Shown here: piece after piece, positions 1 through 5,599 of the stretch
How positions within the stretch are numbered: position 1 is the stretch's first letter
Layout: every line of letters begins with the position of its first letter
Source: Betaproteobacteria bacterium
GTDB lineage: Bacteria > Pseudomonadota > Gammaproteobacteria > Burkholderiales > UBA9220
Reading direction: 5' to 3'
DNA: 5,599 nt
NCBI GenBank assembly: GCA_003519965.1
Contig: DOVS01000313.1
Coordinates: 1 to 5,599, forward strand
Position numbers and translations under genes: made by a program
The notes under the pieces: generated by a model
What the model was told of the DNA's origin: nothing
The model's input: only the letters and a program-made list of their open reading frames with translations
Database searches by the model: none

Positions 1-401
1 AACATGATGTCGCCGGACGGGCCGTGGAAGGCGATCAGGCCGGAGCCATACTTCTCCCATATGTCGCAGAACTTGCGGATGGTATTGGTGTCGTAGTGCA
101 TGCCCGGCGGCGGCATGATGCGCAGGGTGTGGAACTCGGCAGCCGCCGGAAACAAAGGCGCGCCATCCTCGCCCTTCAATTCGGTGAACCGCGGGATCAC
201 ACCACCGCCGTAACCGAAAACGCCAACCGTACCACCCTTCCAATAGCCCTTCTTTGTCTCGTAGGAAGTTTCCAACTGACCCAACAAATCGACCATCATG
301 TCGTTGTCTTTGGCCAGACGCTTCAGCCCGGTAACGAAGCTGGGCCAGGGACCGCTCTCCAACTGATCCAGCATCGGCGTATCGTGCATTTTCTTTGCCA
401 T
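1..401 (-). CDS. dsrA: Dissimilatory (reverse-type) sulfite reductase alpha subunit DsrA, N-terminal part
   Basis: The reverse strand encodes 133 residues from an ATG at 401 to the left edge, where the gene continues out of the window. The protein begins MAKKMHDTPMLDQLESGPWP and contains the glycine-rich stretch GTVGVFGYGGGVIPRF (residues 57-72) and later MHYDTNTIRKFCDIWEKYGS, all characteristic of DsrA. The full protein is usually a little over 400 residues, so about one third is present; the cysteines that bind the iron-sulfur cluster and siroheme lie outside the window. With DsrB it forms the cytoplasmic siroheme enzyme interconverting sulfite and sulfur bound to DsrC. The sequence is closer, as I remember the families, to the oxidative (reverse) enzymes of sulfur oxidisers than to those of sulfate reducers, so it probably releases sulfite from stored sulfur. 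The start is supported by AGGAG seven bases upstream. It is divergent from the genes starting at 842. Confidence 0.95.
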   Translation of the reverse strand, partial: MAKKMHDTPMLDQLESGPWPSFVTGLKRLAKDNDMMVDLLGQLETSYETKKGYWKGGTVGVFGYGGGVIPRFTELKGEDGAPLFPAAAEFHTLRIMPPPGMHYDTNTIRKFCDIWEKYGSGLIAFHGPSGDIM

Positions 402-550: not shown

Positions 551-562
551 ACCCACATGGGT
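551..562. repeat. Short inverted repeat ACCCA-CA-TGGGT
   Basis: Perfect 5-base arms (551-555 and 558-562) are separated by two bases, a spacing that would suit a dimeric DNA-binding protein. It lies about 150 bases upstream of dsrA and eight bases from a second inverted repeat sharing the CCCA/TGGG core. It may be an operator; no regulator is assigned. Confidence 0.4.
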
Positions 563-841: not shown

Positions 842-1087
842 ATGTCACTCAGAATGGACGATGCCGGTCGTATTGACCAATTTACCGCGCCCTTCGGCGG
901 CCAGGAAATCGAGCTGCTCGAAGTACAATATCCTGCCGGCGGCATCCCGCTGTTGAGAGTCCGCATCCGGGAACGGAAGCGGTTCACGATCTTCGAGATC
1001 GATCCCATAACCGCCGAACGTTGGGGCAACGATATGCTGCAATGGGCGCGCCAGCAAAAAGCGGCGGCGAAAGATGCGGAAGACTAA
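842..1087 (+). CDS. Small protein of unknown function, first gene of the rightward run
   Basis: This encodes 81 residues and I do not recognise the family with confidence. It is soluble, with no signal peptide, membrane segment or cysteine. Residues 14-52 read as alternating hydrophobic and charged strands (EIELLEVQYPAGGIPLLRVR, then RKRFTIFEIDP), suggesting a small beta-sheet fold. These are followed by a helix around RWGNDMLQWARQQ (60-72) and a charged alanine-rich tail. The ATG at 842 follows TTAGGTAGAGG; an ATG at 854 (residue 5) is also possible. The reverse strand here gives longer but meaningless frames; this frame is preferred for its position and protein-like composition. It lies 43 bases before the Cas6-like gene and may be cotranscribed with it. 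Its position opposite dsrA suggests a link to sulfur oxidation, by context only. Confidence 0.7.
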   Translation: MSLRMDDAGRIDQFTAPFGGQEIELLEVQYPAGGIPLLRVRIRERKRFTIFEIDPITAERWGNDMLQWARQQKAAAKDAED

Positions 1088-1130: not shown

Positions 1131-1745
1131 ATGCAAACTCAGAATCCAGCCGCCTCCGTTGATGTCGTGTTCACGTTGGAGGGAACAGCTATCCCCCGCT
1201 ATCATGGTGAATACCTATGGCGGGAAATCAGACGCCTGCTCCCGTCGCTTGCCGGCGATGACACGCTCGGCGTCCATCCCATTCACGGTGCGGTAACGGA
1301 AACCAACGCGTTACTACTCTCCAAGCGCGCGGCGTTGACGATCCGCATCCACCGCGAACGGGCGGAGACGCTAATGCCGCTCAGCGGCCAAACAGTCCAC
1401 ATCGATGGCAATCCCTTGCGGATCGCGGCGGGAAAAGTCCGCGAATTGATGGCGCACAACGCAGTTCATGCCTATTATGTCGTCACCGACAACGCGGAAG
1501 AAAGCGCGTTCGCGGCCGACATCCAGGCGCAACTGGACGCCCGGCGTATTGTGTGCAAGCTGCTCTGCGGCAAACCGCATCGTCTGCCGAGCCAGGGTGG
1601 CGAGATGACGGCCTACAGCCTGGCGCTGTACGATCTTACGCCGGAAGCGTCGCTCCAGATACAAGAAACGGGACTTGGGTATAAGCGCGAACTCGGCTGC
1701 GGCGTTTTCGTGCCGCATAAGTCATTTACCGCGGTGGGCGCTTGA
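1131..1745 (+). CDS. cas6: Cas6/Cmx6-type CRISPR-RNA endoribonuclease homologue, without a visible CRISPR array
   Basis: This encodes 204 residues resembling the Cas6 subfamily called Cmx6 (type I-MYXAN). Early residues VDVVFTLEG (10-18) match the family's first strand. GVHPIHG (47-53) contains two histidines, either of which could be catalytic. LLCGKPHRL (144-152) and TAYSLALYDL (160-169) follow. The end carries the diagnostic glycine-rich loop GLGYKRELGCGVFVPHK (181-197), which binds RNA in this ferredoxin-fold family. Known Cas6 proteins cut CRISPR precursor RNA at the base of repeat stem-loops. Here no repeats, other cas genes or transposon lie nearby; the neighbours are sulfur-oxidation genes. 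It may therefore act on another RNA, or in trans on a distant array. No good ribosome site precedes the ATG, but the conserved strand begins ten residues later, so a much later start is unlikely. Family assignment is from memory of its motifs. Confidence 0.75.
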   Translation: MQTQNPAASVDVVFTLEGTAIPRYHGEYLWREIRRLLPSLAGDDTLGVHPIHGAVTETNALLLSKRAALTIRIHRERAETLMPLSGQTVHIDGNPLRIAAGKVRELMAHNAVHAYYVVTDNAEESAFAADIQAQLDARRIVCKLLCGKPHRLPSQGGEMTAYSLALYDLTPEASLQIQETGLGYKRELGCGVFVPHKSFTAVGA

Positions 1746-1836: not shown

Positions 1837-2169
1837 ATGGGGTATGTAGTTAACGGTGTAGAGCTAGAAACCGACGACGAGGGTTTTCTACTGGAGCCGG
1901 ATTATGGCGAAGAGGTCGTGAAGGTGATCGCCGCCGCCGAAGGTATCGCGCTCACCGACGACCACTGGACGGTCATCCAATACATGCGCGACAAATATAA
2001 GGACGAAGGCCACACGCCGAATTTCCGCGCCATGACAAAGGATTTCGACCAGGAACATCCCGGCAAGGATTGGAAGAAGCTCTTGTACGTGCTCTTCCCC
2101 ATGCAGCCTAACCGCCAATCCGCGCGCATCGCCGGCCTGCCTAAGCCTTTCGGTAAAGCGGGCTACTAA
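1837..2169 (+). CDS. Cysteine-free DsrC/TusE-family protein (RspA-like)
   Basis: This encodes 110 residues of the DsrC/TusE fold, the usual length for the family. The start VVNGVELETDDEGFL, the middle LTDDHWTVIQYMRDKY (39-54) and LYVLFP (83-88) are family landmarks. The carboxy-terminal arm QSARIAGLPKPFGKAGY (94-110) aligns with the DsrC arm QAC-x-x-AGLPKP-x-GC. True DsrC carries two redox cysteines there and TusE one. Here the first is Ala96 and the second Lys107, and the protein contains no cysteine at all. It therefore cannot carry persulfide or trisulfide sulfur. DsrC homologues lacking both cysteines have been called RspA and proposed to be regulatory, and DsrC itself has been reported to bind DNA upstream of dsr genes in Allochromatium. 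A regulatory or scaffold role near dsrA fits, but is inference. It is followed four bases later by the sulfurtransferase gene. Confidence 0.9.
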   Translation: MGYVVNGVELETDDEGFLLEPDYGEEVVKVIAAAEGIALTDDHWTVIQYMRDKYKDEGHTPNFRAMTKDFDQEHPGKDWKKLLYVLFPMQPNRQSARIAGLPKPFGKAGY

Positions 2170-2173
2170 GCGC

Positions 2174-3040
2174 ATGGGATTGACCACCCTCGTCAGCACG
2201 GAAACGTTGGCGCGGCGTCTGGACGATCCCGCATGGATCGTTTTTGACTGCCGCTTTACTCTGACCAACGCCGAGACCGGCCGCCGCGCCTATGCGAGCG
2301 GTCATGTGCCGGGGGCGCGTTACGCGCATTTGGAAGAAGCGCTATCCGCCCCCGTTACACCAGCCAGCGGCCGCCACCCCTTGCCCAGTCCCGATGCGTT
2401 TGCCGATCAGCTAGGGCGTTGGGGCGTAAACGCCGACAAACAAGTCGTTGTGTATGACGACAGCTTCGGCTCCATGGCGGTGCGGCTATGGTGGATGTTG
2501 CGTTGGGTGGGGCATGAGTCGGTTGCACTGCTGGATGGCGGCTGGCCTAAGTGGCGGCGGGAAAAACACCCGGTCACGACGGCGCTCCCGGCGGTTCAGC
2601 CGACCGACTTCCCGCTGCGCCTTGCCCCTGGCCTCCAGATAGACGCCGGCCAGGTGAACACCCGGCGCCAAGACAAAAATACGCTCATTGTCGACGCCCG
2701 TCCGGAAGAACGCTTCACCGGCGATTATGAACCTCTGGATAAGATTGCCGGCCACATCCCAGGCAGCGTTAACTGGCCGTTCGAGGAAAATCTCGATCTC
2801 GGCGGCGCCTATCTCCCCGCGGAAGAGTTGCGGGAAAACTATCTCAAATTGCTCCATGACGTTCCCCCCGAGCAGGTGATCCATAGCTGCGGTTCGGGAG
2901 TCACCGCGTGCCATAACGTACTCGCGATGGAAATCGCGGGACTTAGCGGATCCCAACTATACGCCGGCTCGTGGAGCGAATGGATCACCGATCCCGCGCA
3001 TCCGGTGGAAACCGGAGAAAATGGCGTGTTATGCGTGTAA
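2174..3040 (+). CDS. sseA: Two-domain sulfurtransferase, 3-mercaptopyruvate sulfurtransferase/rhodanese type
   Basis: This encodes 288 residues with tandem rhodanese domains, about the usual length for SseA. The first domain (about 5-135) has SGHVPGARY (42-50) and DGGWPKW (121-127) but an aspartate-rich YDDSFGS instead of an active-site cysteine, as expected for the inactive half. The second (about 155-280) has DARPEERF (174-181), GHIPGSVNWPF, and the active loop CGSGVTA with Cys239. The CGSGVT loop favours 3-mercaptopyruvate as sulfur donor over thiosulfate, whose enzymes usually have CRKGVT. The enzyme moves sulfane sulfur through a cysteine persulfide to a thiol acceptor. No signal peptide is seen, so it is cytoplasmic, where it could feed sulfur to the Dsr relay. 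A further cysteine, Cys246, lies seven residues after the active one. The gene starts four bases after the DsrC-like gene with no clear ribosome site, consistent with translational coupling. Confidence 0.9.
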   Translation: MGLTTLVSTETLARRLDDPAWIVFDCRFTLTNAETGRRAYASGHVPGARYAHLEEALSAPVTPASGRHPLPSPDAFADQLGRWGVNADKQVVVYDDSFGSMAVRLWWMLRWVGHESVALLDGGWPKWRREKHPVTTALPAVQPTDFPLRLAPGLQIDAGQVNTRRQDKNTLIVDARPEERFTGDYEPLDKIAGHIPGSVNWPFEENLDLGGAYLPAEELRENYLKLLHDVPPEQVIHSCGSGVTACHNVLAMEIAGLSGSQLYAGSWSEWITDPAHPVETGENGVLCV

Positions 3041-3603
3041 AAACACAATGGCACCGTAGCGGAAAACCCAAGAGCGCTGACGAGACCGCCCGGGCGCTTG
3101 CCCCGGTTTTGTGGCGTCTGGCGGACAAGTCCCTTAAGAACCTGCAATCCGAGGACTACGCCATTCTCGATCCACAGCAGGCATTCTCCATCATCGCGGA
3201 ATTCTTAGTCTTCATGACCCAGATCGCCGATCGCATCGCTTATGAAACGCTGGATAATGACACGCGGAGCGTGTTTATCACGGCATTGGCGTTGCGAACA
3301 GGAGAAATCCTCGAGGAAAATATTCTCGATTCGCCCAATATTGCGCCCGATGACTATCGGCAAATGTTCGTTCGCCTGTTGAACCGCCGCGCCGGAGATT
3401 ATGCGGCCTTCCGTTATACGAGCGAGGGTCCCGACTTCAGCTTCAAGCGCTACCTGGGCCTGCAAATACGAGAAGTCATGGGCGATCGGGATAAAGCCTG
3501 GATCATCGACCAGATCATGGAAATCGAGACGCCCGAGATGGTGGAAACGATTCAAAAAGGCGTACGCGGTCTGCTGGACGCGAGCGCCTCGATAAACCAT
3601 TAA
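3031..3603 (+). CDS. Helical protein of unknown function, last gene of the run
   Basis: This encodes 190 residues, not assigned to a family. It is predicted by eye to be almost wholly helical and soluble, with no cysteine, signal peptide or convincing membrane segment. A hydrophobic stretch AFSIIAEFLVFMTQIADRIA (51-70) is interrupted by charges and looks like a buried helix. A distinctive segment GPDFSFKRYLGLQIREVM (133-150) precedes WIIDQIMEIE. The start overlaps the sulfurtransferase by ten bases. I chose the ATG at 3031, but a GTG at 3028 sits ten bases from the GGAG at 3014-3017, a slightly better spacing. The open frame extends up to 2971, but that part repeats no family-like sequence and is the shadow of the upstream gene. 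The overlap implies cotranslation with the sulfurtransferase, so a role in the same process is likely. Confidence 0.8.
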   Translation: MRVKTQWHRSGKPKSADETARALAPVLWRLADKSLKNLQSEDYAILDPQQAFSIIAEFLVFMTQIADRIAYETLDNDTRSVFITALALRTGEILEENILDSPNIAPDDYRQMFVRLLNRRAGDYAAFRYTSEGPDFSFKRYLGLQIREVMGDRDKAWIIDQIMEIETPEMVETIQKGVRGLLDASASINH

Positions 3604-3688: not shown

Positions 3689-3742
3689 CCGCCCTATGGT
3701 AGATTTAGTTTCATTCTCGATTTACCTCCCGCCGCCCTATGG
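3689..3742 (+). repeat. Two direct copies of CCGCCCTATGG around the kinase start
   Basis: The 11 bases CCGCCCTATGG occur at 3689-3699 and again at 3732-3742, 43 bases apart; the second copy contains the kinase start codon. The ATG in the first copy (3696) opens a different, short frame that is not protein-like. It may be a small duplication. Confidence 0.6.
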
Positions 3743-5599
3743 ACACCCTCGCCCGCCAGCGCCTTACCTACTTCCTCCAACTCGGTGGACTAGCCGCCGT
3801 TTATTTCACCGCCGCTAAGCTAGGCAGCGCATTCACACTACCGGGAAGCAGTATTTCTCCAGCCTGGCCCGCATCGGGATTTGGCCTAGCGGTCCTATTG
3901 CATTATGGCGTCCGGCTATGGCCGGCCATCGTGTTGGGCGCGCTCGCCGCCTTAATCGGGAGCGGCTTCTCTCCGTTTGCCGCCACTGGCGCCACGCTCG
4001 GCTATACTCTAGAAATCGTGATTATCGCCGTGCTGCTACGCTGGCGCTCTTTCGATCCCAGGCTGACACGGCTCGGCGACGTCATCGCGCTCCTCGCGGC
4101 AACGGTTTTCGCCACCTTGATCGGCGCAGTAATCGGCACGGCCAGCCTTCGCTTCAGTGTAATCGCATCCACCGCCCCTCTCCAGGCGATGTGGCCGCTT
4201 GCCTGGCTGGGCCATGCGCTCAGCATTATTCTCATCACGCCGCTGCTCCTCTCTCTAGCCCACCAACGACGGAAAAATTGGACGCTGCGCCGAATGGCGG
4301 AGTTTATCGTTCTGCTTGCCGCCACCCTGGCCATTAGCCAATTCATCTTTGCGGAGTGGTTTTCCCTTGCCATCGACCGCTTCCCCCGCCCTTTCCTGCT
4401 GTTCCCTTTGCTGGTCTGGGCCACATTACGCTTCGGCATGACCGGTGCAGCGACTGCGTCGCTGCTGGCGGGCGCTGTCGTCATCCACGCCACGGCGGGA
4501 CATTTCACCCCCGCCTTCGGGGCAAGCGGCACTCTTCAGCAAAGCATCGCTTCACTATGGGCGTTCATCGGCGTGATGGCCGGCACCGCCCAAATTTTAG
4601 CCGCAACCAACGCCGAGCGCGAACAGGCGAAGAAAGCATCCGCTGCCGCGGAAAACAAATTCCGTCCCTTAGTCGAGCAATCGCTGGTGGGTATTTATAT
4701 TCTTCAGCATGACAAAATCGCCTACGCCAATCCGTGGCTCGAACACGCCACGGGATATGCGCTGCACGAACTCGCCGCGCTACCTTCGGCGCTGGACATC
4801 ATTGCCGAGAACGACCGTGAAATGGCGGCGGAACACATTCGCCAACGCATGAGCGGCGAAATGCACAGCGCCCGCTATACGCTCAACTTACGGCGCAAGA
4901 ACGGCGCCCCCCTGACGGTGGAAGCCTATGGCGCCCGTGCAGTTTACAATGGCGCGCCAGCCATTATCGGCGTCATGACGGATGTTTCGGAAAGACGGCA
5001 AGCGGAACTGGCATTGGCAAAAAGCGAGGCGCTGCTGCGTTCTCTGTTCGACACCGCCGCCGAGGGCATTTGGATACTTGACCAGGATCATAAAACGATC
5101 CTGGCTAACCAGTCGCTGCTCGACATGCTGGGTGTCAGCGAACATAACCTCCTTTTCAAATCCATCGATGACTTTATTGACGAGGACGGCAAGCAGCGGC
5201 TCCACGGGCGATTTCCCTATACGGCGGAAAATAATGGCGGCCAACGTGGAGAACTCAACCTTCTCCGCGCCGACGGCGAACAACGTTATTGCATGTTCAG
5301 CAGCGCGCCGCTTCTCGAGGAAAACGACTGGATGATCGGTTCCTTCATCATGATTTCCGACATCACCGACAAAAAACGCGCCGAAGAATCGCTTCAGCGG
5401 CTAAACGAAACATTGGAACAACGCATTAAAGGCGCTGTCGCCGCCAACCGGGAAAAAGACCATCTACTTATTCAACAGTCGCGACAAGCGGCCATGGGAG
5501 AAATGATCGGCAATATCGCGCACCAGTGGCGCCAACCGCTAAACGCGCTGGGGTTGCTGCTCAGCAACCTAAAGGACGCCCACGCGTTCCAAGAACTGG
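3739..5599 (+). CDS. MASE1-PAS-PAS sensor histidine kinase, truncated at the right edge
   Basis: The frame is open from the ATG at 3739 to the window end: 620 residues, checked codon by codon. Residues 10-290 form a multi-pass membrane MASE1 sensor with the signature SPAWPASGFGLAVLL (40-54) and RLWPAIVLGA, and later WPLAWLGHALSIILITPLLL (152-171). Two PAS domains follow at about 305-420 (FRPLVEQSLVGIYIL onward, ending DVSERRQAE) and 432-548 (LLRSLFDTAAEGIWILDQ onward, ending DITDKKRAEE). A coiled coil (550-585) leads into the HisKA helix, GEMIGNIAHQWRQPLNALG, with phospho-acceptor His595. The ATP-binding domain lies beyond the window. It is an inner-membrane two-component sensor; its signal and partner regulator are unknown. 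No good ribosome site precedes the ATG, yet the first membrane helix begins soon after it. It may be a separate transcription unit from the sulfur genes. Confidence 0.93.
   Translation, partial: MDTLARQRLTYFLQLGGLAAVYFTAAKLGSAFTLPGSSISPAWPASGFGLAVLLHYGVRLWPAIVLGALAALIGSGFSPFAATGATLGYTLEIVIIAVLLRWRSFDPRLTRLGDVIALLAATVFATLIGAVIGTASLRFSVIASTAPLQAMWPLAWLGHALSIILITPLLLSLAHQRRKNWTLRRMAEFIVLLAATLAISQFIFAEWFSLAIDRFPRPFLLFPLLVWATLRFGMTGAATASLLAGAVVIHATAGHFTPAFGASGTLQQSIASLWAFIGVMAGTAQILAATNAEREQAKKASAAAENKFRPLVEQSLVGIYILQHDKIAYANPWLEHATGYALHELAALPSALDIIAENDREMAAEHIRQRMSGEMHSARYTLNLRRKNGAPLTVEAYGARAVYNGAPAIIGVMTDVSERRQAELALAKSEALLRSLFDTAAEGIWILDQDHKTILANQSLLDMLGVSEHNLLFKSIDDFIDEDGKQRLHGRFPYTAENNGGQRGELNLLRADGEQRYCMFSSAPLLEENDWMIGSFIMISDITDKKRAEESLQRLNETLEQRIKGAVAANREKDHLLIQQSRQAAMGEMIGNIAHQWRQPLNALGLLLSNLKDAHAFQEL

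Follow-up and report, generated by a model that had tools for sequence, protein, structure and literature searches.

The described systems that lie closest to the protein treated here are Cmx6, the Cas6 of type I-MYXAN (TIGR02807, PF09559), and its counterpart in the type I-B CAST complex (PDB 8fcj/8fcu). The protein resembles them in a profile match over the whole length. On the sulfur oxidation side, DsrS of Allochromatium vinosum is said to be a post-transcriptional factor for the dsr operon, and the likeness would be one of dsr control above transcription; the two are set side by side by description and not by sequence. The gene downstream of the Cas6-like gene resembles cysteine-free members of the DsrC/TusE family (PF04358), which are known as RspA; this likeness concerns the neighbour and not Cas6, and a joint function is putative. 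According to the accessible part of one paper dsrS is the final gene of the dsr cluster (PMC3368242), whereas the Cas6-like gene is divergent from dsrA. The Cas6 of Sulfolobus solfataricus (SsoCas6, Sso1437) is a precedent for cutting without histidine, being described in the available part of its paper as cutting RNA without the usual one (PMC3652601); it serves CRISPR, whereas the dsr-linked proteins have lost their histidines only in part of the group.

The stretch of DNA that we analysed, the window, is 5,599 nucleotides long and begins with the first 133 codons of dsrA (3..401, minus strand; TIGR02064 dsrA, E 4.3e-44), which runs off the window; the remainder is found on another contig of the same genome (G000:C129, 5-895, matching dsrA model positions 121-398). 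Divergent from it, and all on the plus strand, are a DUF6967 gene (842..1087; PF22295, E 3.6e-26), the Cas6-like gene (1131..1745), a gene for a DsrC-like protein of 110 aa ending GLPKPFGKAGY (1837..2169; PF04358, E 4.2e-31, and TIGR03342), a two-domain rhodanese similar to mercaptopyruvate sulfurtransferase (2174..3040; PF00581, with NF008557 below cut-off) and U210, a helical protein of 190 aa with no family assigned (3031..3603, scanned as 2971-3600). The order from dsrA to the DsrC-like gene is the one that had been claimed from the sequence alone. Beside the cluster Pfam places a MASE1-PAS-PAS sensor kinase (3739-5598), which is a candidate sensor for the dsr promoter. The same sequence-only reading was right that the window has no other cas gene and no CRISPR-like array: no second Cas family was seen when its seven proteins were scanned with Pfam and NCBIfam (PADLOC was run on 2 of the 7), and the array scan gave none. 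Since the genome itself is a MAG of 354 contigs with a completeness of 67%, little can be concluded from a lack of CRISPR genes in it, and it is the family-wide counts that carry the point.

That the 204-aa product of 1131..1745 is of Cas6 type is borne out by Pfam, NCBIfam and PADLOC models alike. The match to PF09559 (Cas6) spans the whole model (1-191/191; E 1.1e-53, 182.5 bits against a cut-off of 26.7), TIGR02807 cas6_cmx6 is matched with 129.6 bits (cut-off 98.85), and six PADLOC Cas6 models recognise the protein. Its sole sequence match in the PDB is 8fcj_B (E 6.5e-21), a Cas6 that belongs to a type I-B CAST complex, and the predicted structure is a Cas6 (RAMP) fold with a C-terminal glycine-rich loop that agrees with the CAST Cas6 (8fcj/8fcu) within 1.4 Å over 193 residues. 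The loop stretch, GLGYKRELGCGVFVPHK, covers residues 181-197, with the loop proper at 181-191 followed by P195-H196-K197, and the protein further has H25, H49, R66, R72, E124 and C146-G147. What is missing of a type I-MYXAN (Cmx6) system is its company, as neither co-encoded cas genes nor an array belonging to such a system emerged from the window proteins, the 183 loci scanned or the Cas1 counts.

The linkage to dsr is very tight in the order, which we infer to be Burkholderiales in the GTDB sense, as we infer the class discussed below to be Gammaproteobacteria. In the sample of 399 order genomes, 87 were counted as dsrA-positive by a best E <1e-80 (84 of them above the curated cut-off); at E 1e-10 there are 192 genomes with dsrA matches, and the 105 not counted, with E of about 1e-10 to 1e-15, are taken for other sulfite or nitrite reductases. 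PF09559 is present in 80/399 genomes, as a single copy in each, and all 80 have dsrA, while 7/87 dsrA-positive genomes lack Cas6 and 0/312 dsrA-negative ones have it (Fisher p 2e-76, uncorrected for relatedness). We examined the neighbourhoods of all 80 loci (79 fetched and the window) and of the 7 exceptions, with counts that come from profile searches of six frames. In 80/80 loci dsrA is on the same contig and divergent from Cas6. DUF6967 lies immediately 5' of the Cas6-like gene in 71/80, a co-oriented DsrC-like gene lies downstream in 72/80, U210 is within the cluster in 77/80, and the rhodanese belongs to it in 41/80 and is absent from 39/80. Among 38 loci from named records, dsrA was divergent upstream in 36 and the remaining 2 begin at a contig end. 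As for the exceptions, the contig of G001 stops 0.3 kb upstream of dsrA and G145 has two dsrA copies, one of which is cut by a contig end; the other five (G084, G132, G216, G276 and G305, from three families) have an intact dsr context where DUF6967 and U210 are kept and Cas6 is absent, and in 4/5 of them the DsrC-like neighbour is missing as well. Four genomes have second dsrA copies (L159, L160, L161 and L162) with neither a Cas6-like gene nor the palindrome described below alongside.

An ordinary Cas6 that processes crRNA from arrays elsewhere and has come to lie near dsrA by chance would be suggested by the family names and the models, which are CRISPR ones, and by the presence of Cas1 in 28/80 Cas6-positive order genomes. 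Cas1 is, however, also found in 121/319 Cas6-negative genomes (p 0.70; the Fisher tests in both the order and the class sample are uncorrected for relatedness), and in the order sample the gene tracks dsrA, with which it co-occurs exclusively, and not Cas1. In the 15 Cas6-positive genomes that consist of a single contig, Cas1 is missing from 11 and a Cas3 above cut-off from 13; helicase matches below the Cas3 cut-off occur in 15/15 of them and matches above it in 2. The gene is even kept without Cas1 in two nearly complete genomes of 1.1 Mb and one single-contig genome of 1.4 Mb. Spaced repeats of CRISPR-like appearance were seen in 2/183 loci scanned, L209 and L153; these are short regular repeats, 54 nt apart at 15598-15725 in L209 and 79-82 nt apart at 9917-10097 in L153, which is a dsr locus without Cas6. 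With the separation of the dsr type from CRISPR-type Cas6 in the tree added, we regard the chance placement of an ordinary Cas6 as scarcely credible.

In the class sample of 219 genomes, dsrA (E <1e-40) is found in 75, 70 of these above the cut-off, Cas6 in 73, and both in 69. The two genes lie within 6 kb of each other in 53/69, and every one of these pairs is divergent; in 15/69 they are on different contigs and in 1/69 they are 41 kb apart. The postulated recurrence of the neighbourhood among dsr-bearing genomes is thereby supported, by 80/80 loci in the order and 53/69 class genomes with both genes, and the two findings that would have refuted the sequence-only reading, a lack of conserved dsr linkage or a protein unlike Cas6, clearly did not appear. 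Five of the 15 loci on separate contigs were fetched and have Cas6 in mid-contig amid other genes, and therefore action in cis is not obligatory. In the four class genomes with Cas6 only (G465, G491, G524 and G583) the contig breaks off no more than about 2.3 kb from the gene, in the direction in which dsrA would be looked for. Of the six with dsrA only, four have a dsrA that is truncated by the contig end or lies at most about 0.7 kb away from it, and in G520 the distance is 1.85 kb; G608 is the only one that offers a long flank, and it is Cas6-less. Some class loci show other company (L185, 8324-8512 and 9533-9739; L196, 1272-1466; L195, 4597-10029), where the Cas6-like gene is flanked by proteins of 61-64 aa and 63-73 aa (one of each was scanned and gave no Pfam family) and has TauD-like and 2OG-Fe(II) oxygenases and DUF6866 nearby; DUF6967 is found in 1/20 such class loci. 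The locus at the 41 kb distance (L193, 8279-8941, in G506, a single-contig genome of 1.4 Mb) has an RNase III-like gene head-to-head with the Cas6-like gene and an Era-like gene next after the RNase III-like one, both named by eye from the sequence. In a phylum sample of 150 genomes, scored for Cas6 and not for dsrA, the sole match was in the window's own genome, and a search of viral contigs with one degenerate pattern matched 31 stretches, among which no relative was confirmed.

For the tree and the alignment, 166 dsr-type sequences (151 distinct ones from the loci and 15 database proteins) were set against 116 relatives of a Myxococcales Cmx6. The dsr-type set includes a few class members that do not adjoin dsrA, and the neighbourhoods of its 15 database proteins were not seen; the CRISPR label of the 116, whose neighbourhoods were likewise not seen, stands for likeness to a Cmx6 and, for some, source names. 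The dsr-linked members are set apart on a branch of their own: a clade with support 1.0 holds 115/116 CRISPR-type sequences, leaving out one stray (P0133), and 0/166 dsr-type proteins, none of which thus groups with CRISPR-type Cmx6. The two groups have in common the glycine-rich loop, R72 (100% in both) and C190 and G191 (94-100%). The dsr type adds R66 (99% vs 30%), E124 (98% vs 22%), G147 (97% vs 34%) preceded by C146 (83%), and a PHK tail with H196 (92%) and K197 (98%), and it drops H41, Y27, P101 and R133-Q134. The CRISPR type, on the other hand, is marked by H25 (100%, 116/116), H41 (97%) and H49 (91%), of which the dsr type has H25 in 78% and H49 in 77% and does not conserve H41. Both candidate catalytic histidines, H25 and H49, are kept by 113/166 dsr-type proteins, the one in the window included, one of them by 31/166 and neither by 22/166.

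The close pairs of Cas6-like genes (equal-length pairs only, after exclusion of 9 of the 34 listed that had no usable dS) gave dN/dS of 0.04-0.36 in 25 pairs, and the gene is therefore under selection, also in the pairs without histidines. Pairs from several lineages with histidine loss are still under purifying selection (0.15-0.17 for L118/L122/L123, 0.36 for L145/L147). This, together with the conservation of R66, E124, C146-G147, H196 and K197 and with the statement, in the available part of one paper, that recognition or chaperone-like roles of Cas6 may rival catalysis in importance (PMC3652601), would suit an RNA-binding derivative that does not cleave and has no need of histidine catalysis, but holds on to a leader RNA with its glycine-rich loop and PHK tail and serves as a chaperone or regulates translation. 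We consider such a protein possible and somewhat doubtful, as most of the dsr type keeps H25 and H49, and as SsoCas6, as far as its description is available, cuts without one (PMC3652601), so that the loss of histidines is no proof of lost cutting. A protein whose RNA role has been lost altogether and that serves as a partner or scaffold of the Dsr enzymes would also fit the relaxed histidines and the close co-occurrence with the enzyme genes, but R72 and the glycine-rich loop show the same degree of conservation as in the CRISPR type, and we find it very improbable. Over 73 loci the pairwise distances of Cas6 correlate with those of DsrA (r 0.64, reached by 0/999 permutations), which is as expected for co-inherited genes; for U210 and DsrA r is 0.83.

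The Cas6-like gene, head-to-head with dsrA, lies beside a gene for a DsrC-like protein that lacks the last cysteine. The 118 loci, among which some genomes occur more than once, supplied 107 such neighbours; of these, 0/107 have a cysteine in the last six residues, compared to 105/107 operon DsrC proteins, so the last cysteine is absent in 107/107; the 20 C-terminal residues are fully cysteine-free in 95 and have a cysteine at -7 to -20 in 12. The protein in the window (1837-2169) belongs to the DsrC family (PF04358) and lacks both C-terminal cysteines, its tail, ARIAGLPKPFGKAGY, having none at the two positions used by operon DsrC. The contact between DsrC and DsrEFH requires Cys111 of DsrC, by the available part of the source (PMC3397948), and because the counterpart of this cysteine is absent, the DsrC-like paralogue is, judged from its sequence, likely a sensor, regulator or binding partner. 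The same partly available source describes DsrC as homologous to TusE, a protein of tRNA modification (PMC3397948), and with a DsrC/TusE-family neighbour and a rhodanese added in 41/80 loci one might think of an RNA-thiolation or tRNA-surveillance module acting on tRNA or sulfur-relay RNA, and not of a regulator of dsr mRNA. That the neighbour has lost the cysteine in question and that 39/80 loci do without the rhodanese make this unlikely. The third companion, U210, is predicted to be all but wholly helical (pLDDT 92), has no Pfam or NCBIfam match, and its predicted structure has no PDB match at E 0.001. It is kept in all five intact-context dsr genomes that lack the Cas6-like gene.

We looked for a common RNA structure in several places. 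The gaps between the Cas6-like and the DsrC-like gene (71 order loci, median 45 nt) show no common hairpin by eye, and the hairpin at about 1757-1791 in this gap of the window is not conserved. An Rfam scan of the window returned no match at gathering scores. The dsrA leaders yielded no hairpin shared between families, and in the last 110 nt before dsrA four of eight sets gave z of -2.6, -2.1, -2.7 and -3.3 and the rest +0.1 to -1.7, with no common shape and a structure signal at the level of genus or family only. When the dsrA/DUF6967 intergenic regions were searched family by family and in both orientations (z-scores from 30 shuffles, some of them inflated by near-zero spread), many conspicuous stretches contained a palindrome, ACCC-N4/5-GGGT, which in our window is ACCCACATGGGT (551..562). 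It occurs within 700 nt upstream of dsrA in 52/80 order loci, with 55 copies in 34 kb there and 36 copies in 1.25 Mb elsewhere in the same loci, a density about 55 times higher; of 38 copies of the N4 form, 37 are at a distance of 79-244 nt from where the dsrA profile starts, and spacers of 2, 3 or 6 were not seen upstream of dsrA. The palindrome is present in 7/8 loci that have Cas6 but no DsrC-like gene next to it, in 1/5 Cas6-less intact-context loci, and in 0/28 dsrA upstream regions of the class (three of them shorter than 700 nt). As an RNA substrate of Cas6 it was rejected, since base pairs outside the 4-bp core do not covary: paired counts were below the shuffle mean at 4/5 positions and at the fifth they were 25 vs 20.3, reached by 78/1000 shuffles. 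A DNA operator is likelier for this reason, and within the order the palindrome probably serves the dsr promoter as an operator.

The idea that a Cas6 was recruited to cut a cellular transcript thus holds in part: the recurrence with dsr, the separation in the tree and the association with dsrA and not Cas1 agree with it, but no shared hairpin in the dsrA leader was found and the candidate catalytic histidines are not conserved throughout the dsr type. We lean, by a modest measure, towards a Cas6-family protein that accompanies dsr instead of CRISPR and that likely binds a cellular RNA, with cutting probable in many members, so as to set the expression of the sulfur-oxidation operon. The RNA would belong to the sulfur-oxidation programme, the likeliest one being the dsrA transcript from the facing promoter with its leader as the nearest candidate, the DsrC-like neighbour would likely be the partner that reports the status of the sulfur relay, and the outcome would be post-transcriptional control of the dsr genes. 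Against this stand the lack of a common leader hairpin, the relaxed histidines with 22/166 proteins having neither H25 nor H49, the five intact-context order genomes and G608 that live without Cas6, the 16/69 class genomes where it is not near dsrA, the fetched Cas6-less second copies of dsrA in four genomes, and the fact that Cas6 tracks DsrA less closely than U210 does. More tentatively, it is conceivable that a CRISPR processing protein has been domesticated as a riboregulator across the gammaproteobacterial class, betaproteobacteria included, and that together with a cysteine-free DsrC that reads the sulfur relay it cleaves or grips the dsr transcript, with its conserved C146 and C190 as a possible switch, and times the burning of stored sulfur.

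In genomic terms the Cas6-like gene goes closely with sulfur oxidation by dsr, and even two genomes of 1.1 Mb retain it. The protein family is known, but its dedication to sulfur oxidation appears to be undescribed in the literature searched: no report of a dsr-linked Cas6 was found among the matches listed from full-text articles, a scope outside of which subscription papers and preprints fall, and as far as the text of these matches was available. P0010 and P0012, the two dsr-type relatives whose source name could be read, are annotated as CRISPR-associated Cas6, and because of this genes of this kind are probably assigned to defence and overlooked in accounts of sulfur metabolism. If the protein does act on RNA, a component of CRISPR would have become a means of controlling a central energy pathway, and the poorly understood control of the dsr genes would gain a concrete candidate.
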